This document shows, in pieces, positions 30,201 through 51,966 of a stretch of 64,000 nucleotides of DNA. Every line of letters begins with the position of its first letter. Within the stretch, counting starts at the first letter, position 1. Source of the DNA: Pseudomonas piscis (GTDB lineage: Bacteria; Pseudomonadota; Gammaproteobacteria; Pseudomonadales; Pseudomonadaceae); assembly GCF_009380155.1 (NCBI RefSeq), contig NZ_WHUV01000002.1, forward strand, positions 310,001 through 374,000. Direction: 5' to 3'. The position numbers and the translations under genes are program-made. The notes beneath the pieces are model-generated. The model was not told the origin of the DNA, did no database searches, and was given only the letters and a program-made list of their open reading frames with translations.

Positions 30201-31127
30201 CAGGGCGTCGTAGTCGTTGGGTTGCACCAGCAGGCGCGCCTGGAAAGCTTGCTCGGCGCCGGCCAGGTTGCCGTTGTCCAGGGCCTGGAGGCCCCGGGCC
30301 ACCTGTGGGTCGCGGCGCCAGCCGGAGCCGCTGCGACCCTGGGCGATGCCCTTGTTCATCAGGTTGCGGATTTCCTGGTCGTCGGGGTGGGCCTCCAGGT
30401 ATTGGCGGAACAGCGATACCTGGTCCCGCGATGGCGGGCCGAGCCATTGCAAGGCGAAGCGCCAGGTCTGGTCGGCATTGCCGCCGATGTCCGGGTTGTG
30501 CGAGAGCCGGGCCAGGGCCCGGATGCCTTCCGGCCGGCTGTCCGGGTTGCGTGCCAGGTGCAGGGCCAGGAACAAGGCCAGGATCGAGTCGTCCGGGCGT
30601 TCGCGCTGCAGACGCTCCAGGCCGACACGAGCCGCGGGCCAGCCACCGCTGGCGAAACCCAGGGTGTTGTAGTACTCGCGGGCGATCAGGCCCTGGGGTT
30701 GGCGTCCGCCCAGCAGTTGGCGGTAGACCTGCACGGCTTCGTCACGCTGCTCGGCATCGCTCAGTTCGCGGGCTTGTTCCAGCAACTGCTGCTGGGATTG
30801 CGGGCTCAGGGCGATGTCCTGTTGCAGTTGCAAGGCCTGGCGCGGCATCGGCGTGAGCGCTTGCAGCCGGGTCAGGTAGGCCTGGGCCTCGGCCATGCGC
30901 TTGCGCTGCAGGCTGATCAGGCCCAGGCCGTACAGGGCGTCGGGTTGTTCCGGAGCCAGGTTGAGCAGCTTGTTCCAGGCTTCGGCGGCCCGCTCGGGGT
31001 GCTCCTTGGCCTGCCAGTAGTAACCCTGCTGGATCAGCAGCGCCTCGGGGCCGCCGGCCTGGTCGGCGAGGACCCAGGTGCAGCCCAGCAGGGTCCAAGT
31101 GGCCAGGACTAGCCTTGGCTTGCGCAT
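27219..31127 (-). CDS. wssE: WssE/BcsC: TPR and outer-membrane cellulose export protein
   Basis: A 1302-residue outer-membrane secretin-like pore. It has a signal peptide (RLVLATWTLLGCTWVLADQ) and about 900 residues of tetratricopeptide repeats, for example AWNKLLNLAPEQPDALYGLG and ALDNGNLAGAEQAFQARLL. The C-terminal BcsC barrel domain of ~340 residues contains blocks such as RGELSYDDQRMGAYGYASA and GLGYSLNAAGEYKFG. The TPR part spans the periplasm and binds the acetylation machinery, and the barrel exports the chain. The ATG at 31127 has a GGGAGG ribosome site inside the bcsZ end, so the two overlap by 19 bp. It is somewhat longer than E. coli BcsC, as usual for Pseudomonas WssE. Confidence 0.93.
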   Translation of the reverse strand: MRKPRLVLATWTLLGCTWVLADQAGGPEALLIQQGYYWQAKEHPERAAEAWNKLLNLAPEQPDALYGLGLISLQRKRMAEAQAYLTRLQALTPMPRQALQLQQDIALSPQSQQQLLEQARELSDAEQRDEAVQVYRQLLGGRQPQGLIAREYYNTLGFASGGWPAARVGLERLQRERPDDSILALFLALHLARNPDSRPEGIRALARLSHNPDIGGNADQTWRFALQWLGPPSRDQVSLFRQYLEAHPDDQEIRNLMNKGIAQGRSGSGWRRDPQVARGLQALDNGNLAGAEQAFQARLLVQPNDYDALGGMGILRQQQKRLDEAQDYLQRATQAPGGGQWRSALEDVRYWRLLARAEQEQRAGRYTEARAAIDQALARNPLEPAGPTALAGLQARMGQRREAEAGYREVLARKPDYPDALGGLVNLLSQAGRAEEALRLIDGLGPAQQARLAPSVHIRALRATQVAKLAERRGDLAGARKAYQQALADDPDNAWTRFALARVLLRSGQAQAARDLMEQALKRQPGQADALYASTLLSAELGEWRKARRSLEQVPAGRRSDDMNELDLDIRLHIQTEQAVDMARRGQRQEAWALLDDSAPLTRDKPTRVAVLAAAYAEAGDPQHGIGLMRQLLERSPATDAQSQLLYAGVLLKAGQDAEAGDILRHWQDQPMDEDSRQQHADLLYLYRVRQADALRERNDLVAAYDVLSPALAERPAAAPGVTSLAQMYAASGNPEKARQLYAPLLQGDPRNARLHLGLADIALKGRDRGTAEKSVARALELEPEDPQVLTQGARIYRRLGNSAEASRLLRKAVAIEDSQRTERLVLRPAARPRPFNPFVGLPGQRREATTLASAELVPPAVPQGRRRHPGPDSGFPPLVDPGQGRGVADSAGQVDPYARDDDTQGPEPAWADSPSPARRELDQLAAESTGYAVQGLTVRANNSEKGLGRLLDIEAPFELSLPLDDSSASLALRVTPVTLYAGSPKGDAAARFGTSTLAPVGSQKDSGVGFALAYQDRDLGLKADAGVSPLGFTYSTAIGGISLNRPFAADPDYRYGVSLSRRPVIDSLTSFAGSRDPRSGKRWGGVTANGVRGELSYDDQRMGAYGYASAHKLLGNNVESNDRLELGSGIYWYLQNAEDRILTLGLSGSALRYGENQGFYTYGHGGYFSPQTFFALGVPVSWAQRTERFTYRLRGSLGVQHIGQDGAPIFPGHRDLQGNADAVGLSRYSGSSKTGLGYSLNAAGEYKFGSRFFLGASLGLDNASDYRQFAAGLYLRYTFEDMTGPMSLPVSPFGSPYSNSY

Positions 31128-32341
31128 GCGGCCTCCCATGGCAGCCCGAGGGTGCCGTCCTGGTTGAAGTGGTAGCGTTTTTCGCTGAAGCCCAGGGAAA
31201 ACAGGCTGAGCATCAGGTGGTAGTACTGGTGCTGCTGGTGGGCCGGGTTGGCCGGGTCGCGGTAGTTGGCGATGGCCTGGTCGACGATGCGCTGCTGCTG
31301 CTCGGCCAGCAACGGCTGGCCCTTGGCGCGAAAGTACGGCACCAGGGCGGCGGAGAATCCGTAGGGTCCGAGGCCTTCGGTACGGCCGCTGAGGACCTCG
31401 ACCTTCTCCGGCGGGGTGCCACTGGAGGCCGTGGCGCGGGCCATGCCATCCAGGTGCTGGAGCAGCTTTGCGGCCAGGGGATCGCTGGCTGGGGTCAGGC
31501 CGGCCCAGAGATAGACGCGGATCGCATCGTAGCTGCCGACCTGGTTGCTGAAAGGGTCGACGACGAAGAGTCCCCGGTCCAGGTCGGTGGCTCTGTAGGC
31601 CACCCAGTCCGGGACGAAACCGTAGCGGTTCATGTCCTTGTCGGCGACCATCGCCAGGGTGTTCTCGGCCACTTCGCGCCAGGGGCCGCCGGGGCCTTCG
31701 CGGGTGAAACGCCGCAGCAGCGGCAGCGGCAGGTAGCTGGCGTTGAAGCGCCACAGCTGGTCCGGGTGCTCGAAGCCCACCGGCCCCGGCAGCAGCATCC
31801 GGCCCAGGCCGGGAATCGGCTTGACCAGGGTCTTCTCGACATTGGCCAGCAGTTGGCGGGCCGCGTTGCGATAGTCCGGCTTGTGCCACAGGCGATCGGC
31901 CTCCAGCAGGGCGAAGGCGAACCACAGGTCGGCGTCGCTGGCCGAGTTCTGGTCGAGGATGCCCCAGGTGCCATCAGGCCTGGCGCCCCACAGCCAGCCG
32001 GGCAGGTTGTGGGCCGGATCGCTGCCGGCCAGGTTGTCGCGGGTCCAGCGCCACAGGCGTTCGAAGCTCTCGGGGTCATTGGCCACCAGGGCGAAGAACA
32101 TGCCGTAGGACTGCCCCTCGGAACTGCTCTGGTTGGGGTCCATGCTGGAGCCGAGCATGCGCCCGTCGGCCTGGACAAAACGCTGGGCGTAGTCCTGCCA
32201 CAGGGGCCAGGTCCGGGTCGGGCAGGTGTCGGCCTGGGCCATGCCCGGCACGGCCAGCGCGAGGGCCACGGCCAAGTGCGGCGCAGCCAGGGCCCGCGCC
32301 TGCCGGCAGAGCCGCGCAAGTGCTGAAAGACGTGTGCTCAT
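31109..32341 (-). CDS. wssD: WssD/BcsZ: periplasmic endo-1,4-beta-glucanase (GH8)
   Basis: A 410-residue glycoside hydrolase family 8 enzyme with a signal peptide ending ALALAVPGMAQA. The catalytic acid Glu75 lies in SSSEGQSYGMFFAL, and the base Asp272 in GSYDAIRVYLWAGL. The substrate cleft includes SASDADLWFAFALLEA. BcsZ trims nascent or misfolded cellulose in the periplasm and is needed for proper export or acetylation patterns. The gene starts 13 bp after wssC and overlaps wssE. Length is normal for the family. Confidence 0.95.
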   Translation of the reverse strand: MSTRLSALARLCRQARALAAPHLAVALALAVPGMAQADTCPTRTWPLWQDYAQRFVQADGRMLGSSMDPNQSSSEGQSYGMFFALVANDPESFERLWRWTRDNLAGSDPAHNLPGWLWGARPDGTWGILDQNSASDADLWFAFALLEADRLWHKPDYRNAARQLLANVEKTLVKPIPGLGRMLLPGPVGFEHPDQLWRFNASYLPLPLLRRFTREGPGGPWREVAENTLAMVADKDMNRYGFVPDWVAYRATDLDRGLFVVDPFSNQVGSYDAIRVYLWAGLTPASDPLAAKLLQHLDGMARATASSGTPPEKVEVLSGRTEGLGPYGFSAALVPYFRAKGQPLLAEQQQRIVDQAIANYRDPANPAHQQHQYYHLMLSLFSLGFSEKRYHFNQDGTLGLPWEAACASQG

Positions 32342-32354
32342 GGTCGCGGTCCCA

Positions 32355-34643
32355 TCAGGAAAGACGTTGCCTGGCGCGGCTGCGCAGGGCCAGGTAGATC
32401 AGGCCGCTGACCAGCAGCAGGCTGCCCAGGGTCACCAGCAGCATCCACAGCGGATGCTGCGAGAGCAGCCACTGGATGCGCTTGAACAGGCCAAGATCGC
32501 CGACGTAGTACTGTTCCTCGGCTACCAGCGAGGTGATTTCCTTGCCATTCACCAGGGCCAGGCTGCCCTGGATGCTGCCCTGGTAGTCGGCGCCACCGAT
32601 CAACGCCGCGGTGGCTTCCACCAGGCCCTCGGGCTGGCCTGCGGCGATCAGCACCACGCTGCGTCCGGCTTGCAGCGGCGACTCGAAACCGGCCAGGAAG
32701 GTGCTGCCCGGTTCCCCGCTGTAGCTCAGGCGCAGGCGGGCCGGACGCGGGTTGGCCTCGGGCTCCGGGCTGATCCATTGGCGCAGGCGCAGGGTCAGGT
32801 CCGACAACGAGAAGCGCTGGTGTTCGCTGTCGCGGGTCGCGGGCAGGTACCCGGCCCATTGCTCGAGCAAGGGCTGGTTGGTGCCGGAGGCGAACACCAG
32901 CAGGTCCTTGTCGCTGACCTGCCGGGCCTGGTCGGCGCCGACTACGCGGACGGCCGTCGCCGGGTAGCCGGTGGCTTCGCCGAAGCGCCCGAGCACCGTC
33001 AGGTAGGCGCTCCATTCTGCCGGGCCGCTGTGCTCCGGCAGCACCACGGCGCTCTGGGACAGATCGGCCAGGCGGGTGAAGGGGAAGCCGCTGTCGTTGA
33101 AGACCCCGAGGTTGGGCAGGGCGATGTAGTGGTTGTAGCCGCTGACATCCAGGGTCGAATCCGGATCGATCAGGCCGCGCATGTTGTCGATGATGATGTC
33201 CCGGCATTCACCCTGCTTGACGTAGTCGTACATGAAGCGCAGTTGCAGGCGCGAACGCGGCGTGGCGGTGCCCAGGGGCAGCAGGACCCTGGTTTCCCGT
33301 GGCAGGCCGGGGTCTGTCTGCAGGCGCTCCAGCAGCGCGGTGCCGCCGTCGAGGTTGCCCACCGAAGGCAGCGGCATGGACTTCATGAAGTGGTCGTTGA
33401 GGTGCACCAGCAGCGCCGAGTTGGTGGAGAACTGCTGCGGTGTGTAGCGGTACTTGAGGTCCAGCGGCACTCCGCTTTCGCGCCAGTTGAACAGGTCGGG
33501 GGCCAGGCGCAGGGGGATCTCGATATTGCCCGGGTTGTAGCCCGAGACGCTGAGCTTGCCGGGTTCGATCAGTTCACCGAGCTTGACCGGGCGATTGGAG
33601 GGCAGCCAGTTCGGGGCATCGTAGGGTTGGCGCGGCTGCAATGCTTCTAGCTGCTCGACCACCACGCTGGCGCCGCTCAGGGCCTTGCCGCCGACGGTCA
33701 GGGCATTGGCCGCCAGCTTCAGTTCGTCGGTGTTGCGGCCACTGATGATCAAGACCTTGCCCCGGGCATCGCCGGGATTGCTCACCAGGCTCAGGCTGGG
33801 GCCCTTGGCGGCCGGCACTTCGAGGTTGCCCAGGCGCAGTGGTTCCTTGGCGATCGCCAGCAAGACCGCGTTGCCCTGCGCCGGCAACTGGTCTCGGCTG
33901 CTGGGGAAGCTGGCGCCACGGTAGGCGGCCAGGGCGCCGATCCAGGACGACACCGCGCCGGCGGCCTCCAGGGTGGCATTGTCCGGAGTGCCGGCGAAGA
34001 CCATCGGCAAGCGTACCTGGCGCGAGTCGCGGCGATCGAAGAAGGGCAGCGGCAGGATCGCCAAGTCGTTCTTCAGGGTGATCGGTGAAACCTCGATCTG
34101 CAGTTCGCTGCTGTTGTTGATCTTGGCCCACAGGCTGCTGTGCAGCGGGTCTTCGCACTGCATGGTGTAGTGGCCGATGAACTGCAGGCGCAGGTGGTTG
34201 AACTCGGTGATCAGCTGCGGCGGGATCCGCACCTCCTGCTCCTGGGGCAGGCCTGCACCCTCCTTGGGCAGGGCCAGGCTTGCGGCGACCTGGTCGTTGA
34301 CCAGTACGTTGATCTGCGACAGCTCGGCCAGCAGGGCCGGCGAGTAGCTGTAGCGCAGCAGCAGGCGGGCGCCGGTCACCACTTCGTCGGCCCGGATACC
34401 GAAGTCCACGCTGTCGGAGGCCTCGGTACCTTGCAGGTTCATGGTGTCGCGACGCCCCAGCTGCTTGAGGCTCAGCTGGTAGCTGGCCACCGCCGGCGCC
34501 GCAGCGTCGGCGGTGGCCGGCAGCTCCTGGGCCGTGGCCCATTGTCCCAGGCCGCCCAGGCACAGCGCCGAGGCGGCCAGCAGATTCCTTTGGGGGCGCT
34601 TGTGGCGCGGTTCGAGGCCGGCAGAGCAAGAGGTCGGTTTCAT
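32355..34643 (-). CDS. wssC: WssC/BcsB: cellulose synthase regulatory subunit
   Basis: A 762-residue periplasmic subunit with a signal peptide (NLLAASALCLGGLGQWATAQ). It has alternating carbohydrate-binding-like and flavodoxin-like domains, for example YSPALLAELSQINVLVNDQ, HLRLQFIGHYTMQCEDP and RDIIIDNMRGLIDPDSTLDVSGY. The C-terminal helix HPLWMLLVTLGSLLLVSGLI anchors it next to BcsA. Together they form the inner-membrane channel that guides glucan outward. The ATG at 34643 shares a base with the wssB stop; a GTG one codon earlier is possible. Confidence 0.95.
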   Translation of the reverse strand: MKPTSCSAGLEPRHKRPQRNLLAASALCLGGLGQWATAQELPATADAAAPAVASYQLSLKQLGRRDTMNLQGTEASDSVDFGIRADEVVTGARLLLRYSYSPALLAELSQINVLVNDQVAASLALPKEGAGLPQEQEVRIPPQLITEFNHLRLQFIGHYTMQCEDPLHSSLWAKINNSSELQIEVSPITLKNDLAILPLPFFDRRDSRQVRLPMVFAGTPDNATLEAAGAVSSWIGALAAYRGASFPSSRDQLPAQGNAVLLAIAKEPLRLGNLEVPAAKGPSLSLVSNPGDARGKVLIISGRNTDELKLAANALTVGGKALSGASVVVEQLEALQPRQPYDAPNWLPSNRPVKLGELIEPGKLSVSGYNPGNIEIPLRLAPDLFNWRESGVPLDLKYRYTPQQFSTNSALLVHLNDHFMKSMPLPSVGNLDGGTALLERLQTDPGLPRETRVLLPLGTATPRSRLQLRFMYDYVKQGECRDIIIDNMRGLIDPDSTLDVSGYNHYIALPNLGVFNDSGFPFTRLADLSQSAVVLPEHSGPAEWSAYLTVLGRFGEATGYPATAVRVVGADQARQVSDKDLLVFASGTNQPLLEQWAGYLPATRDSEHQRFSLSDLTLRLRQWISPEPEANPRPARLRLSYSGEPGSTFLAGFESPLQAGRSVVLIAAGQPEGLVEATAALIGGADYQGSIQGSLALVNGKEITSLVAEEQYYVGDLGLFKRIQWLLSQHPLWMLLVTLGSLLLVSGLIYLALRSRARQRLS

Positions 34644-36865
34644 CACTTGTCCATGAGAGTGGTGAGCGGTGGCTGGGAATCGGTACGGCGGGTGCGCTGC
34701 CGACGTTGGAGGCTCAGGCAGGCCCTGAGCAGGGCGCCGACGCCGCCCAGGCCGATACGGCTGACTTCGCGCAGGGCCGACAGCGGAGTGTCGACCTTGC
34801 CGCTGCCCCAGCTGGCGGCCCAGGTGTCGGCGCGGGAGAAGGTCAGGCGCACCAGTTCGCTTTGCTGGCGCAGGCTCAGGGGCTCGAACTGCGCGCCGAC
34901 GAAGTTGCCGTTGCGAAACACCACGCGGGTGTCGAATTCGCTGGCGCGCTGGTTGCGAAACAGCGACACCCGCAGGTGTTCGCCACGCTGTACCAGGCTG
35001 GCTTCGGGCAGCCGCAGGCCGAGCCCGCGTTGCGAGAAGTCCTGGGTCTGGCCCATGACCTGCGAGCCATCGTCCAGGGTCACCTGTATCGGCAGTTGTG
35101 CCTGGACCCGGGGTTCGGCGCGGACCTGGCGGGTTTCACTGGCTACCGCCACGGCGGCGCTGGTGATGATCAGGTTGTAGAGGGTCCAGGCCAGGTTGAT
35201 CAGTACTGTGGTGCGGCTGTCCGGCTCGCCCCAGAACAGCTGCTGGATGCCCATGCACAGGCCGATGAAGTTGAGCAGCAACAGGACGATATAGGGCCGG
35301 GCCAGCTTCCAGTCGAAGAACTCGTGGTCGATGATGCCGCCCTTGTCGGTGACGTTGAAACCGCCGAACTTCGGCTTGACCAGGGCGATCAGCACCGGCG
35401 GCATGATGTACCAGGCCAGCACCGTCTCGTAGACCTCGTTCCAGAACGAATGGCGAAAGCGTCCCTGGATCCGCGAGTTGGTCAGGCTGGCATGGAACAG
35501 GTGCGGCAGGACGTAGGCGGTGATCATCAAGGCCGAGGCGTGGAAGATCTCGGCGCCGAATATCAGGTAGGCCAGTGGCGCGGTGAGAAATACCAGGCGC
35601 GGCAGGCCGTAGAAGAAGTGCAGCATGGCATTGGCGTAGCAGATTCGCTGGCCCAGGTTCAGGCCCTTGCCGCCCAGGGGATTGTCGATGCGGAAGATCT
35701 GCGCCATGCCCCGGGCCCAGCGGATCCGCTGGCTGATGTGCCGCGACAGGCTTTCGGTGGCCAGGCCGGCGGCCTGGGGCAGCGCCAGGTAGGCGGTGTT
35801 GTAGCCGGCGCGGTTGAGCTTGAGGGCGGTGTGGGCATCCTCGGTGACGGTCTCGGTCGCCACGCCGCCGACTTCTTCCAGGGTGCTGCGGCGCAGCACC
35901 GCGCAGGAACCGCAGAAGAAAGTGGCGTTCCACAGGTCGTTGCCATCTTGCACCAGGCCATAGAACAGCTCGCCTTCGTTGGGCACCGCGCGGAAGGTGT
36001 TGAGGTTCTTCTCGAACGGGTCCGGGGAGAAGAAATAGTGCGGGGTCTGCAGCATCGCCAGCTTGGGGTCCTTGATGAACCAGCCCATGGCGACCTGCAG
36101 GAAGGAGCGGGTGGGCACATGGTCGGCGTCGAACATGGCGATGAACTCGCCGTCGGTGATCTGCAGCGCGTGGTTGAGGTTGCCGGCCTTGGCGTTGGCG
36201 TTGTCGTCGCGGGTGATGTAGTTGACGCCGATGTCCTGGCAGAACTGGCGGAAGTCGTCGCGGCGACCGTCGTCGAGCACATGAACCCGCAGCTTGTCCT
36301 TGGGCCAATCCATCGCCTGGGCGGCGAAGATGCTCAATTTGACGATGTTCAGGCCTTCGTTGTAGGTGGGGATGAACACGTCCACCGTCGGCCAGGTATG
36401 CGGTTCGCCCTGGAGCAGTACCGGCTGGCGCCGCAGCGGCCAGGCGGTCTGCAGGTAGCCGAACATCAGCACCACCAGGGCGTAGATCTCGGCCAGCACC
36501 AGGCCGTAGCCGAACAGCGCATCCAGCCAGGCATCGAAACCCAGGGTCGAGGTCAGGCGCCAGTACATGTAGCGCAGCGAGGCGATCAGCGACAGCACGA
36601 TCAGCATCAGGATCGGCAGTCGCCCGGGAATGCGCCTGATCACCAGCGCCGCGAGGAAGCACAGCAGGGCGAACAGGCACTGGCTGTAGAGATCCAGCGG
36701 TGCGCTGACGCTGCTCAATAACAGCAGTGCAGCCAGGATCCAGAGCATGCCTACGAATGATCGGCGGATTGATTTAGGCCAGGCCGACAGGCGGTCGAGC
36801 CAGGCGCCGGGGTGCACTTCAAGACGCCCCTGGGCAAGGGACGGGCGCGGTGTTTCCTGGGTCAT
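34643..36865 (-). CDS. wssB: WssB/BcsA: cellulose synthase catalytic subunit (UDP-forming) with PilZ domain
   Basis: A 740-residue processive GT2 synthase that polymerises UDP-glucose to beta-1,4-glucan. Membrane helices surround the GT domain with all family motifs: DDG 198-200, DAD 246-248, TED 341-343 and QRIRW 379-383 (Q(Q/R)xRW). The C-terminal PilZ domain has R582-A-E-P-R586 and D609-F-S-Q-R-G614, the c-di-GMP-binding pattern, so synthesis is activated by c-di-GMP. The start at 36865 overlaps the wssA stop (ATGA). A longer upstream frame is not homologous. Confidence 0.97.
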   Translation of the reverse strand: MTQETPRPSLAQGRLEVHPGAWLDRLSAWPKSIRRSFVGMLWILAALLLLSSVSAPLDLYSQCLFALLCFLAALVIRRIPGRLPILMLIVLSLIASLRYMYWRLTSTLGFDAWLDALFGYGLVLAEIYALVVLMFGYLQTAWPLRRQPVLLQGEPHTWPTVDVFIPTYNEGLNIVKLSIFAAQAMDWPKDKLRVHVLDDGRRDDFRQFCQDIGVNYITRDDNANAKAGNLNHALQITDGEFIAMFDADHVPTRSFLQVAMGWFIKDPKLAMLQTPHYFFSPDPFEKNLNTFRAVPNEGELFYGLVQDGNDLWNATFFCGSCAVLRRSTLEEVGGVATETVTEDAHTALKLNRAGYNTAYLALPQAAGLATESLSRHISQRIRWARGMAQIFRIDNPLGGKGLNLGQRICYANAMLHFFYGLPRLVFLTAPLAYLIFGAEIFHASALMITAYVLPHLFHASLTNSRIQGRFRHSFWNEVYETVLAWYIMPPVLIALVKPKFGGFNVTDKGGIIDHEFFDWKLARPYIVLLLLNFIGLCMGIQQLFWGEPDSRTTVLINLAWTLYNLIITSAAVAVASETRQVRAEPRVQAQLPIQVTLDDGSQVMGQTQDFSQRGLGLRLPEASLVQRGEHLRVSLFRNQRASEFDTRVVFRNGNFVGAQFEPLSLRQQSELVRLTFSRADTWAASWGSGKVDTPLSALREVSRIGLGGVGALLRACLSLQRRQRTRRTDSQPPLTTLMDK

Positions 36866-37920
36866 GGGGATATGGGCTCTTGGGTATCGTGCGCGAGCAG
36901 TTGATCGAGTGCCGCGCCGATCTGCAGGATCTCTGCGCAGCCTCGGGTGCTTGGGCCCCGGGCCAGGGGATTGCGTTCGTAGGCCAGGGCTTCGCCTAGC
37001 TGGTGGTCCTGGTGGACCGTCCCCAGCAGTTGGTCGCCCAGCTGGTTGCGCAGGATCTCGGCCATGTCGAGGCTGAAGCTGCGCTGGTCGTCCAGCAGGT
37101 TGATCAGGTAACGGCAAACCGGTGCCCGCGAGCCTTGGCGGTGGCTGGCCAACAAGCGGTCCAGGCGTTGCAGGCTGTTGTAGCTGGCGGCATCGGCCAG
37201 GGTGACGATCAGCAGCGCATCGGCCACTTGCAACACCTGGCGCAGGTAGCAGGACGCCCCGGTTGGCGTGTCGATCAGCACCGTGTCGCCAGCCTTGAGG
37301 TCAAGCTGGGCAAGATGCCGGGCCAGCCAGTTGCTGTCCTGCTCCAGGACTTGTTCGAGCCGGCGTTGCTGGTCTTCCCGGGCATTGCCGTAGGCCAGGC
37401 ACTGGGTCCGGGCATGACCGGTGCGCAGGTAGTCTTGCCAGTTGGCGGCGCCTTCGTCGGCTTCGACTATCCCTGCCTGTTGCGGGCCAAGCCCAAGGTG
37501 CAGGGCCAGGGCATTCTGCGGGTCCAGGTCGATGGCCAGCACCCGGCCGTTGGGGCGCTCCAGGGCGCAGGCGAGCCCGGCGGTGAGAGTGGTACGTCCG
37601 ACACCGCCCTTGCCCGACAACAGCGCAACCACCCTGGCCCTGGATGGACCTTTCGGGCCCGCGTCGGGCTGCGGCTGTAGCGGGTCGAGGTGCTGGCGCT
37701 GCTGGCGGACCTGGGCCAGCAGGGCACCCAGGGCATTGGCCGGGGCTGCCATCTGGGCCCGGGGTGGCTGGATTGCGGTCGAGAAGGCAGGTACAGGCGC
37801 CGCCTGGAGCACGGCCGACCGATCATCGGCGTACTCGTAGCTGGGTTCGATTTCCTGATAGTGCTCCGCACTGGCCCCGAACCTGCTGAACAGGTTCGCA
37901 ATGTCGTCCGAACGATGCAT
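36862..37920 (-). CDS. wssA: WssA/BcsQ: ParA/MinD-like ATPase with BcsP/R-like N-terminus
   Basis: A 352-residue protein. Residues ~95-345 form a ParA/MinD P-loop ATPase of the BcsQ type (SGKGGVGRTT at 102-111, LAIDLDPQNAL, DTVLIDTPTGAS), thought to place or assemble the cellulose machine at the cell pole. The first ~30 residues (DDIANLFSRFGASAEHYQEI) look like the short BcsP/BcsR helical domain that in other species is a separate gene; the linker is Pro/Gln rich. The ATG at 37920 follows CAGGGATGTCCC. It is the first gene of the wss operon. Confidence 0.88.
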   Translation of the reverse strand: MHRSDDIANLFSRFGASAEHYQEIEPSYEYADDRSAVLQAAPVPAFSTAIQPPRAQMAAPANALGALLAQVRQQRQHLDPLQPQPDAGPKGPSRARVVALLSGKGGVGRTTLTAGLACALERPNGRVLAIDLDPQNALALHLGLGPQQAGIVEADEGAANWQDYLRTGHARTQCLAYGNAREDQQRRLEQVLEQDSNWLARHLAQLDLKAGDTVLIDTPTGASCYLRQVLQVADALLIVTLADAASYNSLQRLDRLLASHRQGSRAPVCRYLINLLDDQRSFSLDMAEILRNQLGDQLLGTVHQDHQLGEALAYERNPLARGPSTRGCAEILQIGAALDQLLAHDTQEPISP

Positions 37921-44384: not shown

Positions 44385-46856
44385 TTAGAAGTCCCAGCGG
44401 GTGGCCAGTTGCAGGCTGCGCGGTTCGCCGTAGAAGCCGGTGCCGAAGTTGCCGATGCCGGTGTAGTACTTCTTGTCGAAGAGGTTCTTCACGTTCAGCG
44501 TGGAGCTCAGGTGCTGGCTGAACTGATAGCGCGCCATGGCATCCACCAGGAAATAACCATCCTGGGCAATACGCGAGTCGTGCCCGCCATTGACCGTGTC
44601 GTTCGGGTCGGGCTGGTAGACCTTGCCGAAGAACTGGCTCTGCCAGTTGACCCCGCCGCCCAAGGTCAGGCGTTCCCAGGCGCCAGGCAGGCGGTAGGTG
44701 CTGAACAGCCGTGCCACTTGCTGTGGTTCGGTGGTCTGCAGGACCGAGCCGTAGACGTAGTCGTGGTTGGCATCGCGGGTGTGGTTGTAGCTGTAGCCGG
44801 CTGACAGGTTCCAGCCTTCGCGCAGTTCGCCGGCCACCTTGATTTCGAAGCCCTTGGTGGTCGCGCCCTTGGTCGGGCGGTAGATGGCATCGATGCCCCA
44901 GCCGTCCACCAGTTGCGCGACGTTGTCCTGCTCGGTGTGGAAGACCGCGAAGCTGGCGTTGACCCGACCGTCCAGGTATTCGGCCTTGATCCCGGCTTCG
45001 TAGCTGTCGCCCTGCACCGGGTCGAGGATCTTGCCGTCGACACCCTTGCTCATCTGTGGTTGGTAGATGCTGGTGTAGCTGGTGTACAGCGAATAGCGCT
45101 CATCGAGGTCATAGACCAGCCCGGCGTAGGGGGTGACGACCCCGGTCTGCTGGTAGCGCTGGCGTGCATCGGCCTGGCCGGGGTCGAAGTAGCGGGTGTT
45201 GTCGATGCCCTTGAAGTCGCTGACCCGGGTGCCGAGGATCACCGCCAGGTCGTCGCTGGGCTTGAGCCGGGTGGCCAGGTAGGCGCCGGTCTGGCGCTGG
45301 AGGATGTCGTTGTCGCCGATCTTCGGGATGTCCGGCTTGGCGAACTCGCCGCGCCAGTCGTAGATGCTGCCGCCCACCGGCGGGTAAACCGAGCCGTGGA
45401 CCGGGATGTCCTGCTTGGCGTTCATCAACATGAAACCGGCGATCAGCTCGTGCTCGCGGCCGAACAGGCTGAAGGGACCGTGCAGGTTGATGTCGAGGTT
45501 GTCCTGCACCTGTTCGCCCTTGAACTTGCCCATGTACATGAACATGCCGTTGCCTGTGGCCTGGTCCGGGTTGCCGCCGCTGGCCGAACCCAACAGGGTG
45601 TCGTGCTGGCGGCGCAGGCGGTCGTAGCTGACCTTCAAGGTCCAGTCGTGGGCCAGTTGTTGTTCCACGGAGGTGAACAGGGTCTGGTTCTTGAAGTCGC
45701 GGCGGCTCCAGTCGGTAGCCGGGTTGAACGAACGGGAGAAGTGGGTCCGCGAGCCATTGCCGAAGTACATCGGGAAGCCGGTCCAGGTGGCGCCCCGGGA
45801 GCGCGTATTCTGCTGGTCCAGGCCTATGGTCAGCAGGGTGTCCGGGGTGAGGTCGGCCTCGAGCACGCCGTAGGCGATGTCCTTGGTGTTCTGGTAATGG
45901 TCGAGGTAGGAGCTGCGGTCCTGGTAGACCCCGACAAAACGTCCGCGCAGCTTGCCTGTTTCGCTCAGCGGGCCGGAGATATCCCCTTCACTGCGATAGT
46001 TGTCCCAGGAGCCGACCGTGCCGGTGATCGAGGCCTTGAACTCTTTGGTCGGCCGCTTGCGGATCAGGTTGACGGTGGCTGAAGGATCGCCGGAGCCGGT
46101 CATCAGGCCGGTGGCGCCCTTGATGATCTCCACTCGGTCGAAGGTCGCCATGTCGGTGCTGGTGGTGCCGTAGTCGTAGACCCCGTCGTAGGTGGCGTTG
46201 ACTCCGTCGTACTGGAAATTGGTGATGGGCATGCCGCGGCTGGAGAACTCCCAGCGCTCGCTGTCGTAGTTCTGCACGCTGACGCCGGGGGCTCGGCGCA
46301 AGGTGTCGGCGATGCTGGTAGCGCCCTGGTCGTCCATCTGCTGGCGGGTGACCACGGTCACTGTTTGCGGGGTTTCGCGCAGTGACAGGTTGAGACCGGT
46401 GGCCGAGGCGCTGGCGCCGGTGGTGTAGCTGTGGCTGTCTTCGGTGACGTTGCCCAGGGCCTGGGCGGAAATCTGCGTGGCCCCCAGTTGCAGTGGACCC
46501 TTGTTGGCGGGAAGCGCCTTGAGTACATAGCCGCCGCTGACCGCCTGGGCCTGCAGGCCGGAGTTCGCCAGCAGCAGTTGCAGGCCTTCTGCGACGCTGT
46601 AGCTACCGTTCAGGCCGGGACTTTGCTTGCCCGCCGCCAGGTCGTTGTGCCCGGCGATGAACAGCGTGCTTTGCTCGGCGAAGCGGTTGAGCACGGTGAC
46701 CAGCGGCCCGGGGCCGATGCTGTAGTTGCGGCGCATGGCTGCGCCCTGGCTGTCACCACCCTCCGGCGCGGCATGGACCCAGGGAGCGGCGCATAGCAGC
46801 GCGGCGCACAGGGGCAGGGTATGGAAGGGCAGGCGCGAACGGCTGGGTAATGGCAT
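44385..46856 (-). CDS. TonB-dependent siderophore receptor with STN signalling domain (FpvA type)
   Basis: An 823-residue outer-membrane transporter. It has a signal peptide (…ALLCAAPWVHA) and an STN/secretin-TonB N-terminal domain (~40-115, RNYSIGPGPLVTVLNRFAEQ… to GGYVLKAL) that talks to FecR. The plug domain follows (ETPQTVTVVTRQQMDDQG, EIIKGATGLMTGSGDPSATVNLIRKRP), then a 22-strand barrel ending in FGEPRSLQLATRWDF-like C-terminal Phe. It imports a ferric siderophore whose identity is not predictable. Fur and the adjacent sigma/anti-sigma pair should control it. The 5' leader contains an inverted repeat covering its ribosome site. Confidence 0.94.
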   Translation of the reverse strand: MPLPSRSRLPFHTLPLCAALLCAAPWVHAAPEGGDSQGAAMRRNYSIGPGPLVTVLNRFAEQSTLFIAGHNDLAAGKQSPGLNGSYSVAEGLQLLLANSGLQAQAVSGGYVLKALPANKGPLQLGATQISAQALGNVTEDSHSYTTGASASATGLNLSLRETPQTVTVVTRQQMDDQGATSIADTLRRAPGVSVQNYDSERWEFSSRGMPITNFQYDGVNATYDGVYDYGTTSTDMATFDRVEIIKGATGLMTGSGDPSATVNLIRKRPTKEFKASITGTVGSWDNYRSEGDISGPLSETGKLRGRFVGVYQDRSSYLDHYQNTKDIAYGVLEADLTPDTLLTIGLDQQNTRSRGATWTGFPMYFGNGSRTHFSRSFNPATDWSRRDFKNQTLFTSVEQQLAHDWTLKVSYDRLRRQHDTLLGSASGGNPDQATGNGMFMYMGKFKGEQVQDNLDINLHGPFSLFGREHELIAGFMLMNAKQDIPVHGSVYPPVGGSIYDWRGEFAKPDIPKIGDNDILQRQTGAYLATRLKPSDDLAVILGTRVSDFKGIDNTRYFDPGQADARQRYQQTGVVTPYAGLVYDLDERYSLYTSYTSIYQPQMSKGVDGKILDPVQGDSYEAGIKAEYLDGRVNASFAVFHTEQDNVAQLVDGWGIDAIYRPTKGATTKGFEIKVAGELREGWNLSAGYSYNHTRDANHDYVYGSVLQTTEPQQVARLFSTYRLPGAWERLTLGGGVNWQSQFFGKVYQPDPNDTVNGGHDSRIAQDGYFLVDAMARYQFSQHLSSTLNVKNLFDKKYYTGIGNFGTGFYGEPRSLQLATRWDF

Positions 46857-46858
46857 GG

Positions 46859-46928
46859 GGTTCCCTTGTGGATCGGCAATGTGAGGACTGTTACCGGGTT
46901 GACCGAACGCCAACGGCAAAAGGGAACC
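46859..46928 (-). promoter_or_regulatory. Possible RBS-sequestering leader of the receptor gene
   Basis: On the mRNA strand, GGTTCCCTT (46928-46920) is the exact complement of AAGGGAACC (46867-46859), which contains the ribosome site just before the ATG at 46856. The 52-nt loop would let a 9-bp stem hide the ribosome site. Pairing is seen in the sequence; a regulatory role is inferred. Confidence 0.4.
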
Positions 46929-46952
46929 GGTCATGCAAAAAAAACATCAGCC

Positions 46953-47930
46953 TCAGGTTCGCGGCTCCAGGGTCACCCACCAAGAGGCCAGGCGCCGGAC
47001 CCGCACTGGTAACGCCGCTTCCAGCAGGGCCAGGGCCTGGTCGGGATCGTGCAGGGGGAAGGAGCCCATCACCGGCAGGCGGGCGATGGCCGGATCGCAA
47101 CCCAGGTGGCCGCCGCGATAGCGCCCCAGCTCTTCCAGCAACTGCTCCAGGGGCAGGTTGTCGGCCAGCAGCAGGCCACGACTCCAGGCTTCGCGGGCAG
47201 AGCTGGCGGCCTGCAGTTGTCCCTGGGACAGGTTGTCGAAGCGCAATTGCTGGCCGGCATTTACCACCTGTACCTGCCGGCCATCGGTGCTGCGTACTTC
47301 CACGGCGCCGGCGTAGACATTGAGCTGGCTGTCGCTGGCGTTGCAGCGCACGCTGAAACGGGTTCCCAGGGCGCGCAGGCGTCCGTGATCGGTCTGCACC
47401 AGGAACGGGCGCTGCGGGTCCTTGGCGGTGTCGATGAGGATTTCCCCCAGGCGTAATGCCAGCAGTCGTTGCTCGCTGCTGTAGAGCACATCCACGGCGC
47501 TCAGCGCGTTGAGCCACAGGTGCGTGCCATCGCTGAGCAGGGTGTCGCGGATTTCCCCGGTGCCAGTGGCGTAGTCCGCGCGCCAGCGGCTCAGGGCCTG
47601 GGGCAGGGCGGTGCCGCGCCACGTACTCCAGCCCAGGCCGGCCAGCAGTAGCGCACCGAGCACCTGGCGTCGTGCCAGGGGGGCGCGCCGGTTACTGCGC
47701 AGCGCCTGGCTGGCGGGCTGGCGGGTATTGGTTTCCTGCAGCGGTAACAGGCGCTGGTGGATCCGTTCGACATAGGCCCAGGCCTGGCGATGTTCCGCAC
47801 TGTGTTCGAACCAGGCTTGCCATTGGCGGTGCTGTTCGTCGCTGCTGGCCTGATCCTGCAGTTGCACATACCAATGCGCCGCTTGTTGCAGGCTGGCATG
47901 GCTGAGCCGGCCGCCGGATTGCTGGTCCAT
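46953..47930 (-). CDS. FecR-family anti-sigma factor/signal transducer
   Basis: A 325-residue inner-membrane protein relaying siderophore occupancy from the receptor to the sigma factor. The cytoplasmic anti-sigma domain is residues ~1-85 (AAHWYVQLQDQASSDEQHRQWQAWFEHSAEHRQAWAYVERIH region with the conserved Trp residues). One membrane helix (QVLGALLLAGLGWSTW) follows, then the periplasmic FecR/STN-like domain (ATGTGEIRDTLLSDGTHLWLNALSAVDV…GTRFSVR). It begins 3 bp after the sigma gene and ends 96 bp before the receptor. Confidence 0.94.
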   Translation of the reverse strand: MDQQSGGRLSHASLQQAAHWYVQLQDQASSDEQHRQWQAWFEHSAEHRQAWAYVERIHQRLLPLQETNTRQPASQALRSNRRAPLARRQVLGALLLAGLGWSTWRGTALPQALSRWRADYATGTGEIRDTLLSDGTHLWLNALSAVDVLYSSEQRLLALRLGEILIDTAKDPQRPFLVQTDHGRLRALGTRFSVRCNASDSQLNVYAGAVEVRSTDGRQVQVVNAGQQLRFDNLSQGQLQAASSAREAWSRGLLLADNLPLEQLLEELGRYRGGHLGCDPAIARLPVMGSFPLHDPDQALALLEAALPVRVRRLASWWVTLEPRT

Positions 47931-47933
47931 GGG

Positions 47934-48467
47934 TCACTCCACCAACAGGCCGTCGAGCTCGGCCTCCAGCACCGCACAATGCAGCAGAGCCTGGGCCAGG
48001 TACTTCTTGACCATGCGTTCCGACACTGCCAGTTCCTCGGCAATCGCCTTGTAGGGCCGGCCGTGCAGTTGCGCCAGGATGAACGCCGCGCGCACCTTGG
48101 CCGGCAGGCGGCTGAGCATGGCGTCCACTTCATGCAAGGTCTCGACAATGATCGCTCGTTGTTCCGGGGACGGTTGCACTGCCTGGGGCCGCGCCGCCAG
48201 GGCCTGTTGCCAGGCCTGTTCCAGTTGCCGGCGGCGCCAGTGGTCGATGCATAGGCCCCGGGCCACGGTGGCGAGATAGGAGCGCTGGTGGACCTCGTCG
48301 TGCAGCTCGGGGGGGCGCTTGAGCACCCGGACAAAAATGTCGTGGGCCAGGTCAGCGGCATCCCAGGCATGGTTCAGTCGCCGGCGCAGCATCTCGTAGA
48401 GCCAGTGGTGATGGGCGTCGTAGAGGTTATGCACCGAGACGGGACTGGCGAGTGGAGGGGAGGACAA
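47934..48467 (-). CDS. ECF RNA polymerase sigma factor (FecI-type, iron starvation)
   Basis: A 177-residue sigma-70 family member with region 2 (LYEMLRRRLNHAWDAADLAHDIFVRVLK, including the -10 recognition DAADLAHDIF) and region 4 (LPAKVRAAFILAQLHGRPYKAIAEELAVSERMVKKYLAQAL). It directs transcription of the TonB receptor gene when FecR releases it. The N-terminus is uncertain: the only sensible full-length start is a TTG at 48467 with no clear ribosome site. A Fur-like box lies just upstream, at 48497-48521. Confidence 0.9.
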   Translation of the reverse strand: MSSPPLASPVSVHNLYDAHHHWLYEMLRRRLNHAWDAADLAHDIFVRVLKRPPELHDEVHQRSYLATVARGLCIDHWRRRQLEQAWQQALAARPQAVQPSPEQRAIIVETLHEVDAMLSRLPAKVRAAFILAQLHGRPYKAIAEELAVSERMVKKYLAQALLHCAVLEAELDGLLVE

Positions 48468-48793
48468 GAGGCGGTATCCGGTGGCGAGCTAGGTGTAAAT
48501 GGGAATTGATCGCGATTAAATCAAAAGCCCCTGGCCCCTGCAAACGATATCGAGCCGCTGCGCTGCAATGGGCGGTGTTTGAGCGTATGGGTGAAATTGC
48601 CGCCGGGCCTGGCGTGTATGAAGCGATGAAAGATCCTGGGCCTGGCTATTCAGTGCTTGCTGGAAGGGGTTTCTTAAGTGGTATCTTCGCTTTCAGTCTC
48701 AGGGTACGGCAATGTGCCGCAGCACCGGGGCGAGACAAGACGGGACGCCCCTGGTGGTATCAGGCCGGCAGTGACTGCAAAGGGGGGAAGCTG
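48468..48793. other. Divergent promoter region between the sigma gene and the EIIC-EAL gene
   Basis: Roughly 325 bp that contain the Fur-like box at 48497-48521. The part from 48530 to 48780 presumably carries the EIIC-EAL promoter, but I could not pick out a convincing -35/-10 pair or an operator there. Confidence 0.5.
48497..48521 (-). promoter_or_regulatory. Fur-like box upstream of the ECF sigma gene
   Basis: AAATGGGAATTGATCGCGAT continues to TAAAT; it compares with the iron-box form AATGAGAATTGATTCTCATT with several mismatches. The location, 30-54 bp ahead of the sigma start in a FecI system, fits Fur repression. Confidence 0.5.
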
Positions 48794-50881
48794 ATGCGCG
48801 GACCGCGATTCAAGCTGTTTTTCACCCATCGCCTGGCGCTGCTGGCGGGTGCCGAATCCCTGCGTTCGATCCGCGAAGGCCTGCTCTGGCTATTGCCCTG
48901 CCTGCTGCTCTCGGCGTTGCTGCTGATCCTCGCGCAATGTGCCCAGGTCCTGGGGGCTCCGAGGGAACTGGTGCAGCTGCTGGCCGGCCTGCACGAGCGC
49001 ATCAATTCGATCATTCCACTGTTGGTGGCAGCGTCCATCGGCTACATGCTGGCGCTCCAGTACCGCCTGCCGCAGCTGCCGGTGGCTTTCCTGTGCCTGT
49101 CCTACGTGGTGATCGCCATCTACATGCTGCACGACTACCCGCTGGCGGCGGCGAGCTTCGTGCTGTTCATCGCCATCGCCTCGCCGCTGGTCAACGTGCC
49201 CATCATGGCCAGGCTGCACCGCCAGCGCTGGACCAGGCTGCTGGACGAGGATCTGGTGGGGCACAACCTCAAGGGCACCATCAACATGGTGCTGCCGGGG
49301 ATCTTCACCTCGTTGTTGCTGGTGGCGGTCTTGCAGTCGCTGCTGCAGATCCAGGACTTCGCCTACATCCAGCAGCCGCTGGACCTCAAGGACCTGGGCA
49401 ATCCCTACCTCAGCGGCGTGGCGCTGACCCTGGGCAATTCGCTGTTGTGGTTCTTCGGCATCCACGGCACCCACGCCCTGCAACCCTTCATGGAGGTGAT
49501 GGACCAGGCGGTGGCGCTCAATGCCGCGGACCAGGCCGCCGGCCAACCGCTGCGTTACGCCCTCAACAGCGGCCTGCTGGGGTGTTTCGCCTTCATTGGC
49601 GGTTCCGGCGGCTCCCTGGCGCTGGTGTTGGCTATCCTCGGGTTCTCCAGCATCCGCTCCCTGCGCCTGCTGGCCTTGGCGAGCCTGGCGCTGTCGCTGT
49701 TCAACGTCAACGAGCTGCTGTTGTTCGGCCTGCCGATCATCCTCAACCCGAGGTTGCTGGTGCCTTTCATGCTGGTGCCCATGGTCAACGTCAGCCTGGC
49801 ACTGCTGGTGGTGCAGCTGGGCTGGGTGAGCCCGGCGCTGGTGGAAGTGCCCTTCACTTCACCGGTGCTGCTCAACGCTTACCTCAGCACCCAGGGCGAC
49901 TGGGGCGCGGTGCTCCTGCAACTGGTGCTGCTGGGTGTCGGCACCCTGATCTACATCCCCTATATCCGCAGCCTTCACCATCAGGGCGAGGCTGGCGAGC
50001 AGGTCTACCTGAAGACTTTCGACACCACGTTCCGTGGCCTCGAGGAACGTAGCCGGCTGTTCGAACTGGACCCGATGGTCGCGTCCTACAAGGAAACCGC
50101 CCGGCAGTCCCTGCAACTGGCGCGGATCCAGCAATTGAGCGAGTACGACTTCCACCTGGAGTACCAGCCCCAGGTGTCCAAGGACACGGGCCGCTGCACC
50201 GGTTGCGAGGCGCTGATGCGCGCGCGCGACGGCGATGGCCAGGTGCGCCTGCCCTGGGAGTTGCTGCAGTGGCTGGGCCAGGCCGGGCTGATGCCCGAGG
50301 TGGATTTCTGGGTCGCCTCCCAGGCGGTGCGCCAGCACTTGCTCTGGCGCCGCAATGGCTTCGAGTTGCCGATCACCATCAATGTCTCCAGCGCTACCCT
50401 GGCCTCGGCGGAGCATGGCGAGCGCTTGCTGGACATCCTGGGCCGGGCCCGCGGTCAGGTATCGGTGGAGATCACCGAGGATGCCCTGGTGGGCGACGCG
50501 CTGCGTACCTTGCGCTGGATCGAGCAGTTGCACGCCCTGGGGGCGAAGGTCTACATCGATGATTTCGGTACCGGTTTCTCGGCCCTGAGCTACCTGCACC
50601 AGTTCCCGGTGGACGGCATCAAGATCGATCGCAGCTTCGTCCTGGCCCAGCGTGAGCCCCAGGGTGCCCAGGTCCTCAACGGCTTGCTGCGTTTTTGCGA
50701 GACCCTGGGCCTCAAGGTGGTAGTGGAGGGGGTGGAGACTCAGGAGCAGCTGGAGTTCCTGCAGTCGAGCTCGGAGCTGATTATCCAGGGCTGGTACTAC
50801 AGCAAGGCGCTGCCGGGCGCGCAGATTCCCGGGTTCGCCAGCCAGAGGGCCCAGGCCGCCCAGGCGCCCGGCGATGACTGA
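48794..50881 (+). CDS. PTS-EIIC (lactose/cellobiose family) domain fused to a c-di-GMP phosphodiesterase EAL domain
   Basis: A 695-residue membrane protein with an unusual architecture. Residues ~1-400 are a complete EIIC membrane domain of the Lac/cellobiose class: about ten helices, the conserved FFGIHGTHA (His224) and FNVNELLLFGLP (Glu307), positions that in ChbC-type transporters bind the sugar. Residues ~430-685 are an EAL domain with every catalytic residue: E472 of EAL, N530, E559-I-T, D589/D590, K610 and VVEGVET. It should hydrolyse c-di-GMP in response to a sugar in the membrane domain. No EIIA/EIIB genes are nearby. The ATG at 48794 follows AGGGGGGAAGC. Confidence 0.88.
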   Translation: MRGPRFKLFFTHRLALLAGAESLRSIREGLLWLLPCLLLSALLLILAQCAQVLGAPRELVQLLAGLHERINSIIPLLVAASIGYMLALQYRLPQLPVAFLCLSYVVIAIYMLHDYPLAAASFVLFIAIASPLVNVPIMARLHRQRWTRLLDEDLVGHNLKGTINMVLPGIFTSLLLVAVLQSLLQIQDFAYIQQPLDLKDLGNPYLSGVALTLGNSLLWFFGIHGTHALQPFMEVMDQAVALNAADQAAGQPLRYALNSGLLGCFAFIGGSGGSLALVLAILGFSSIRSLRLLALASLALSLFNVNELLLFGLPIILNPRLLVPFMLVPMVNVSLALLVVQLGWVSPALVEVPFTSPVLLNAYLSTQGDWGAVLLQLVLLGVGTLIYIPYIRSLHHQGEAGEQVYLKTFDTTFRGLEERSRLFELDPMVASYKETARQSLQLARIQQLSEYDFHLEYQPQVSKDTGRCTGCEALMRARDGDGQVRLPWELLQWLGQAGLMPEVDFWVASQAVRQHLLWRRNGFELPITINVSSATLASAEHGERLLDILGRARGQVSVEITEDALVGDALRTLRWIEQLHALGAKVYIDDFGTGFSALSYLHQFPVDGIKIDRSFVLAQREPQGAQVLNGLLRFCETLGLKVVVEGVETQEQLEFLQSSSELIIQGWYYSKALPGAQIPGFASQRAQAAQAPGDD

Positions 50882-50991
50882 TGCCCCAGGCCGTCGTGCC
50901 CTGGCCCCCGGGGGCAGGCGCAGGCCCGTTTTGCCCTGGCTCCGGGCATTTTGAACTACGCTTGACGTCTTAGCCGCGAATGGAGTCAGCG

Positions 50992-51966
50992 ATGTTGTAC
51001 CCAAGCAAACCCAACAATGAGGCCCTGCGGATCCAGACCTTGCGGGCGCTGAATGTCCTCGACACCCCGCCGGAGGAGCGTTTCGATCGCCTGACCCGGC
51101 TGGCCAAGCGCTTGTTCAACGTGCCCATCGCGTTGGTCAGCCTGGTGGACGGTGATCGCCAGTGGTTCAAGTCCTGCGCGGGCCTGGATGCCAGCGAAAC
51201 GCCACGGGATATCTCGTTCTGCGGACATGCGATCCTTGGCGACCAGATCCTCACGGTGTGCGATGCCGAGCAGGACGTGCGTTTCCATGACAACCCGCTG
51301 GTGGTGGGCGATCCCGGAATCCGCTTCTACGCCGGCTGCCCGCTGACGGTGGCCAACGGCAGCAAGCTGGGCACCTTGTGCCTGATCGACGTCAAGCCCC
51401 GGGACCTGGACGACGAGGAGCGGGCGCTGCTGCGGGACCTGGCGCGCATGGCCGAGCAGGAGCTGGCGGCGGTGCAGATGGCCAGCATGGATGAGCTGAC
51501 CCTGCTGTCCAACCGCCGTGGGTTCGAGGCCCTGGCCCGGCATGCGCTGGGAGTCTGCAAGCGCCTGGACAAGCCGGCGACCCTGCTGTTCTTCGATCTC
51601 AACGATTTCAAGCAGATCAACGACACCTATGGCCATGCCGAGGGCGATGGTGCGCTGAAGACCTTCGCCGACGTGCTGCGCATCGCCTTTCGCGAGAGCG
51701 ATGTGGTCGGTCGCCTGGGTGGCGATGAGTTCGTGGTCCTGCTGACCGCCGCCGATCATGTGGAAACCTCGAACATCATGGCCCGATTGCGCGAGATCCT
51801 CGATGAACGCAACGCCACCTTGAAGCGCGGCTACGACATTCGCTTCAGCGTCGGCCAGATCGAATACAACGCCGAGCGCCATCCGGACGTGGAGGCGTTG
51901 CTGGCCGATGCCGACAAGGCCATGTACCTGCAAAAGCAGGCCAGCAAGCGCCAGCGTCAAGACTGA
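50992..51966 (+). CDS. GAF-GGDEF diguanylate cyclase
   Basis: A 324-residue cytoplasmic enzyme: a GAF domain (residues ~20-160) in front of a GGDEF domain (~165-320) with D-ELTLLSNRRGF, DLNDFKQINDTYGHAEGDG and an intact GGDEF at 243-247. The inhibitory RxxD site is RESD 234-237. It should make c-di-GMP, with product feedback. I chose ATG 50992 because GGAG lies 6 bp upstream; an ATG four codons earlier has none. It lies 110 bp after the EIIC-EAL gene, so a synthase and a phosphodiesterase are adjacent. Its stop overlaps the convergent gene by 10 bp. Confidence 0.92.
   Translation: MLYPSKPNNEALRIQTLRALNVLDTPPEERFDRLTRLAKRLFNVPIALVSLVDGDRQWFKSCAGLDASETPRDISFCGHAILGDQILTVCDAEQDVRFHDNPLVVGDPGIRFYAGCPLTVANGSKLGTLCLIDVKPRDLDDEERALLRDLARMAEQELAAVQMASMDELTLLSNRRGFEALARHALGVCKRLDKPATLLFFDLNDFKQINDTYGHAEGDGALKTFADVLRIAFRESDVVGRLGGDEFVVLLTAADHVETSNIMARLREILDERNATLKRGYDIRFSVGQIEYNAERHPDVEALLADADKAMYLQKQASKRQRQD

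Follow-up and report, generated by a model that had tools for sequence, protein, structure and literature searches.

Domain architecture of the EIIC-EAL protein

The window analyzed here is a stretch of 64,000 nucleotides from Pseudomonas piscis (RefSeq assembly GCF_009380155.1, contig NZ_WHUV01000002.1, positions 310,001 to 374,000 of the forward strand), and the positions given below are counted from its first letter. At 48794..50881 on the plus strand, it carries a gene that joins the membrane domain EIIC of the sugar phosphotransferase system (PTS) to an EAL phosphodiesterase domain of cyclic di-GMP (c-di-GMP) signaling. As judged from its sequence and its genomic context, the product is probably an active c-di-GMP phosphodiesterase to which an orphan EIIC domain is joined as a receptor, in the manner of a transceptor. 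The gene is a single frame with no internal stop, encoding 695 amino acids followed by a stop codon, and a Shine-Dalgarno-like purine-rich segment, AAGGGGGGAA, can be read on the same strand at 48780..48789, 5' of the ATG at 48794. A scan for sigma-70-type promoters gave no match; the four terminator-like matches (1.6 expected) all fall within it and were not used.

The EIIC domain is of the Lac/cellobiose type and occupies 48845..49990 (plus strand; residues 18 to 399). These borders are those over which the lacE model TIGR00410 (NCBIfam) aligns, with 158.9 bits, below its curated cutoff of 236. The Pfam core, PTS_EIIC (PF02378), lies at residues 28 to 329, with an E value of 2.1e-21 and 76.7 bits, above the cutoff of 30.7. 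A linker at 49991..50131 (plus strand; residues 400 to 446) fills the space between the domain borders and is followed at 50132..50806 (plus strand; residues 447 to 671) by the EAL domain, matched in Pfam with an E value of 2e-56; PTS_EIIC and EAL are the only Pfam domains of the protein. The only solved EIIC structure found by sequence was 3qnq (E value of 3.5e-25), which we take to be bcChbC, the EIIC for cellobiose and chitobiose, and the similarity spans the whole domain. In the alignment with this structure, whose residue numbers are counted along the pairwise alignment, H224 (49463..49465, plus strand) corresponds to His250 and E307 (49712..49714, plus strand) to Glu334. The coordinates, the EIIC-EAL fusion, the residues H224 and E307, and the EAL glutamate E472 had all been given in a preliminary description of this DNA, made from the letters alone, and they prove correct.

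The catalytic set of the EAL domain is complete, including the EAL, DDFG, and EGVE motifs. The 10 residues checked, taken as the catalytic set from work on RocR, are all present: E472 (the glutamate of the EAL motif), L474, R476, N530, E559, D589, D590, K610, E645, and Q665. The same 10 are found in 22 of 23 compared fusions, the window protein included, the 23rd being a trimmed fragment with a gap at the glutamine, where this one residue is unread. Among EAL chains of solved structure, the nearest include 4rni (“Motility regulator”) and DosP (4hu3). By the residues checked, the EAL half looks like an active c-di-GMP phosphodiesterase, as the preliminary description had supposed from the same full set.

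These residues also bear on a reading in which c-di-GMP would be the input, with the EAL domain sensing it and gating EIIC as a facilitator of unphosphorylated sugar. EIIC folds descend from transporters, transport without phosphorylation needs neither EIIA nor EIIB, and some EAL proteins, such as LapD and FimX, do act as receptors. Receptors of the LapD and FimX type, however, have degenerate catalytic sites, and no such loss of catalytic residues was found in the fusion. The genome holds 25 EAL matches, the fusion included, and among the other 24 all 10 residues are kept in 19 and not in 5; catalytic loss thus occurs in this genome but not in the fusion family, and a gated facilitator appears decidedly improbable. 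As a separate observation on this domain, one fusion from the same class (L071, 1369 on, plus strand) seems to carry a short repeat in tandem in the region of its EGVE motif.

Distribution and history of the fusion family

At an E value of 1e-10, the EIIC query matches 73 of 398 genomes of the genus, its own included (about 18%). Of the 30 closest loci within the genus, the window gene again counted, 29 hold the two domains in a single frame, and the remaining one (L007) is frame broken. Six further genomes (G041, G092, G168, G333, G358, and G359) have both domains, with a broken start region in G358 and G359, and in each of the other 37 the frame stays open for 696 codons or more. Copies are apparently broken in 3 of 73 genomes, within the EAL half in L007 (genome G376) and near the N terminus in L046 (G359) and L047 (G358); assembly errors are possible in all three. 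The closest named relatives are Pseudomonas protegens FD6 and 14B2, 85% identical in the EIIC part, the copy of 14B2 (L075) being in two pieces; Pseudomonas sp. Au-Pse12 and LD120 are the two other named relatives. G041, also of the genus, carries a different branch of the family (L037, 9655 on, plus strand), an EIIC-EAL protein 31% identical that groups with the members from Pseudoalteromonas and Tritonibacter.

The family extends beyond the genus. In a sample of the class drawn evenly, the EIIC part matched in 1 of 369 genomes, only that of the window, and in a sample of the phylum it matched in 16 of 299, a mixture of standalone permeases and fusions in which 9 of the 16 were checked to be fusions. 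Among 290 relatives of one carrier, G1022, three match its EIIC, and one other than the carrier (L116) is also a fusion. Named fusions beyond Pseudomonas come from Vibrio, Photobacterium, Pseudoalteromonas, Tritonibacter, Acetoanaerobium, and Clostridioides difficile (on a plasmid), the protein of Vibrio sp. THAF190c being 37.5% identical over 99% of the query; a blastn search of Escherichia coli genomes with the fusion DNA found no match. The preliminary description had asked how widespread this pairing of PTS_EIIC and EAL is, and the answer is a family present in 73 of 398 genomes of the genus, with examples from Vibrio to Clostridia.

EIIC trees were built from 23 fusions and 17 standalone permeases, with or without 3qnq. 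The fusions taken from the genus were picked by hand for spread and comprise 10, the window protein among them, and the divergent L037. Of the standalone EIICs, a near-copy (L059), a short sequence (L068), an unannotated one (L089), and four added later (L117 to L120) were excluded from the alignment and the trees. In the EIIC tree, the 23 fusions stand opposite the 18 permeases (3qnq included), with a bootstrap value of 97 and an SH-like approximate likelihood ratio test (SH-aLRT) value of 95; without 3qnq, the same split from 17 permeases has values of 90 and 87. The EAL tree unites 20 fusions in one clade (90 and 93), with the same three proteobacterial subclades as in the EIIC tree, and places the fusions of C. 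difficile, Acetoanaerobium, and one genome of the same phylum next to a different EAL domain of the window genome. A single EAL clade of all fusions was not rejected by the approximately unbiased (AU) test (p-AU of 0.157). These trees have some long branches and no known root, and bootstrapping of the EAL tree had not converged. Since both trees show the same three subclades, the two halves travel together, and the sequences are read as the outcome of one or two fusion events, with the halves inherited together since.

Both halves are conserved at the protein level. Against L006, the numbers of nonsynonymous (dN) and synonymous (dS) substitutions per site are 0.093 and 0.49 for the EIIC part, 0.085 and 0.60 for the EAL part, and 0.121 and 0.66 for the linker. 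In nine of nine comparisons, each half has a lower dN than dS, with dS near or above 1 in several, and the linker is less conserved than either domain. By this measure, both halves are under purifying selection, and the EIIC part is not decaying.

Sugar pocket and loop of the EIIC domain

The core of the sugar pocket is shared by the aligned fusions and permeases. The pocket glutamate (E307) is found in 23 of 23 fusions and 17 of 17 permeases, and the H224 position holds histidine in 19 of 23 fusions (asparagine in 3 and glutamine in 1) and in 16 of 17 permeases (asparagine in 1). Asn304 is present in all 23 fusions and Trp219 in 22, and G269, G270, G272, P314, and N318, around the pocket, are retained by 90% or more of the fusions and of the permeases. 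The position of Trp382 of 3qnq is more variable: tryptophan occupies it in 11 of 23 fusions, and phenylalanine or leucine in 12, with phenylalanine in the window protein, whereas the permeases have tryptophan in 16 of 17 and phenylalanine in 1. Because of this replacement of Trp382 by phenylalanine and the variation of H224 in 4 of 23 fusions, the sugar specificity of 3qnq is not transferable to the fusion. Two candidate markers at the pocket were dropped. H224 does not mark the loss of phosphotransfer, because a permease with adjoining EIIA and EIIB also has asparagine there, and a proline after the pocket glutamate, found in 17 of 17 permeases versus 3 of 23 fusions, does not mark permeases, as 3qnq has methionine.

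The conservation of the pocket can be set against the view that EIIC is a mere membrane anchor or dimerization scaffold with no ligand, the EAL domain being constitutive or set by expression and location. Many EAL proteins do have membrane domains of unknown input, H224 is replaced in the four fusions mentioned, and the EIIC domain has no known ligand. On the other side stand the glutamate and Asn304, invariant across Clostridia and Proteobacteria, together with the glycines, the proline, and the asparagine that surround them. A pure anchor would not need such residues; their conservation therefore speaks against this view, which is considered unlikely.

The fusions differ from the permeases in a loop at 49226..49309 (plus strand; residues 145 to 172), which is predicted to be cytoplasmic from an N terminus on the inside and from its positive residues. 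Permeases have here the motif VP.....SF..L.P, which was derived in the present analysis and has no published definition. Its P, F, and L are present in 17 of 17 aligned permeases and its S in 16, and the motif also occurs in 3qnq; in the window protein it is replaced, and the equivalents of F163 and L166 are found in 0 of 23 aligned fusions. In a wider check of all loci collected, the standalone EIICs left out of the trees among them, the motif was found in 22 of 24 standalone EIICs and in 0 of 61 fusion loci, some genes being counted more than once among the latter. The lost motif may have served the docking of EIIB.

Missing phosphotransferase partners

No EIIA or EIIB gene adjoins the fusion, as the preliminary description had noted, and the absence extends to the genome. 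PTS_EIIC matches the window genome (G000, 6.93 Mb) four times, once within a FruA-like frame that also encodes two EIIB domains. No match was found in this genome to PF02255, the model of Lac-type EIIA, and the EIIB model PF02302 has none outside the FruA-like frame, other EIIB models (e.g., the glucose type) not having been searched. Lac-type EIIA is likewise missing from all 73 fusion-bearing genomes (0 of 73), and the same search was positive in E. coli, Bacillus subtilis, and Lactococcus lactis. PF02302 gives exactly two tandem matches in 72 of these 73 genomes and none in G041. The pair lies within a single frame, in most cases about 590 codons long, except in G358, where the frame is split, and it is read as FruA, the frame of the window genome being the only one checked by sequence. 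Among eight annotated loci of standalone permeases, by comparison, six have both EIIA and EIIB adjoining, L088 has EIIA, and L083 has neither. The EIIC of L088 is 568 amino acids long and may include EIIB.

Because the uptake partners are missing from the genome, the EIIC domain is more likely a receptor than a transporter. A working PTS permease with an EAL domain attached would have to borrow EIIB from FruA or from another system. Such a permease would fit the PF02378 score above the cutoff and the equivalents of His250 and Glu334, and the EIIB it borrows could belong to a family outside PF02302. Yet Lac-type EIIA is found in none of the 73 genomes, the only PF02302 EIIB is the FruA-like pair (or, in G041, none), the loop motif separates all 17 permeases from all 23 fusions, and the score lies below the TIGR00410 cutoff. 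The protein shares with the permease family the Pfam domain and the pocket and not a TIGR00410 score above the cutoff, cognate EIIA and EIIB (as searched by PF02255 and PF02302), or the loop motif. A working permease is given very little probability.

The same absences bear on the direction from which a signal could arrive. The joining of PTS_EIIC to GGDEF, EAL, and/or HD domains is listed from Pfam architectures as rare among c-di-GMP signaling proteins, and the domain is called a phosphoreceiver, in a review of such proteins (PMC8846402). In contrast to that description, the present family has no Lac-type EIIA in 73 of 73 genomes, and no matching EIIB was found. Given these two results, phosphorelay input to the fusion appears unlikely.

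Genomic neighborhood and the cellulose operon

The fusion gene is followed on the same strand, 98 nucleotides downstream, by a gene for a GAF-GGDEF protein (50980..51966; Pfam). Upstream and divergent from it, at 44385-48467 on the minus strand, are genes for an extracytoplasmic function (ECF) sigma factor, FecR, and a TonB receptor (Pfam), a set that is syntenic in several close relatives. An operon with the GAF-GGDEF gene was considered and rejected, the spacing being wide or the gene absent in relatives and the closeness of 98 nucleotides local. In close relatives that keep the gene, the gap is about 0.6 to 4.3 kb; at the locus of P. protegens FD6 (L073), a long open reading frame on the opposite strand comes directly after the fusion, and in another close relative (L039), no GAF-GGDEF match was found within the stretch examined. 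Seven more distant carriers (L037 and L042 to L047) have none of the tested neighbors within 18 to 19 kb. Because the distant carriers share no tested neighbors and the close relatives have a wide gap, the fusion gene looks, from this comparison, like its own transcription unit.

The window also contains a cellulose operon, on the minus strand at 27219-37117, with BcsC, a GH8 protein, BcsB, and a BcsA-like glycosyltransferase with PilZ. A CHASE4-PAS-GGDEF-EAL protein is encoded on the far side of this operon (20681-23251, plus strand). The operon was correctly recognized in the preliminary description, which went on to suggest a cellobiose sensor providing feedback on the cellulose that the bcs genes produce. 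In favor of this are the distance of about 16 kb and the EIIC type, which includes cellobiose permeases. It is contradicted by the wider distribution. BcsB is about equally frequent in the two groups: 25 of the 73 genomes that carry the fusion have it, versus 26 of 80 genomes of the genus with no EIIC match, the 80 being those that came first by handle among 150 drawn at random (Fisher P value of 0.86, or 0.61 without two weak matches among the 26). The two loci are 2.5 to 3.4 Mb apart in the eight other genomes in which they share a contig, and they lie on different contigs in 16 of the 25 genomes having both.

The nearest relatives point the same way. BcsB is absent from the six closest genomes with the EIIC part (G324, G376, G061, G353, G272, and G073), and the cellulose operon therefore looks like a local gain or loss among relatives. 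The closeness of bcs to the fusion, seen only in the window genome, looks in this comparison like local chance, and cellulose feedback was rejected on co-occurrence and distance, which makes a cellobiose sensor tied to this operon most improbable. Five genomes (G006, G070, G079, G141, and G333) have two or three BcsB matches each, probably from several cellulose-type operons.

A putative saccharide receptor within a c-di-GMP phosphodiesterase

In the mechanism proposed here, an EIIC domain related to the Lac/cellobiose permeases keeps the core of its pocket and would work without EIIA and EIIB. Because no EIIA and EIIB serve it, the ligand would not be phosphorylated by EIIC. An outside saccharide, probably a small sugar with a beta linkage (cellobiose would be a guess), may bind the EIIC domain and shift it between conformations. 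The 47-residue linker could pass this shift to paired EAL domains and so change their arrangement, and with it the speed of c-di-GMP cleavage to pGpG; the ligand might in this way lower c-di-GMP, as the preliminary description proposed. In place of the sensor linked to cellulose that was first suggested, the part that survives is a sensor and not a transporter, as the missing EIIA and EIIB, the separate branch, and the lost loop motif all support a receptor. More tentatively, the fusions may form an old and wide family, found in Proteobacteria and Clostridia, in which a permease domain has turned into a stand-alone saccharide receptor, giving up EIIA, EIIB, and the loop motif but keeping the pocket, and through which an outside sugar would be read into c-di-GMP hydrolysis.

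Several points weigh against a receptor of this kind. In the pocket, H224 is asparagine or glutamine in 4 of 23 fusions, and Trp382 of 3qnq is replaced by phenylalanine in the window protein. The loop motif is also absent from two standalone EIICs, L068, which is short, and L118, which has an internal stop in the match; that the loop docked EIIB is something we infer; and because the standalone EIICs were collected by their similarity to the fusions, the contrast in the loop may break down elsewhere among the permeases. For EIIB partners, the search covered the family of PF02302. For the coupling through the linker, an AlphaFold model from four close sequences was unusable, with a mean predicted local distance difference test (pLDDT) score of 41, and the predicted linker helices are not relied on, because pLDDT is below 50 there. 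Finally, the three apparently broken copies suggest that the fusion gene is dispensable in places.

Compared with bcChbC and the permeases of TIGR00410, the window protein is alike in the sequence of the whole domain, in the pocket glutamate and histidine, and in the glycines and prolines. It is unlike them in lacking EIIA and EIIB of the type and the loop motif, in having phenylalanine for Trp382, in the attached EAL domain, and in its separate branch. A further comparison is CbrA of Pseudomonas, an SLC5 symporter joined to a histidine kinase, which recognizes histidine (PMC7096432 and PMC13022988). It resembles the window protein in how it works, with a transporter domain and a signaling enzyme in one chain, and differs in its parts, SLC5 and kinase instead of EIIC and EAL; by this analogy, CbrA sets a precedent for the joining of transporter and signaling domains. 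In Vibrio cholerae, EIIAGlc acts on PdeS (PMC8846402 and PMC6877527), so that there too PTS parts tie sugar status to a c-di-GMP phosphodiesterase. In that case, however, a phosphorylated soluble EIIA meets a separate enzyme, whereas here a membrane EIIC lies within the enzyme and no Lac-type EIIA is present.

No experimental study of an EIIC-EAL protein was found in the literature searched, which was largely without subscription journals. PTS_EIIC domains in c-di-GMP proteins had already been cataloged as rare (PMC8846402). If the proposal is true, the family would show clearly how a PTS permease domain can turn into a receptor that needs no phosphotransfer, contrary to the phosphoreceiver reading in that review.

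Most c-di-GMP phosphodiesterases have, to our knowledge, no known input signal. A receptor of the proposed kind would make outside sugars directly testable as c-di-GMP inputs in about 18% of the sampled species of the genus and in its relatives in Vibrio and the Clostridia.

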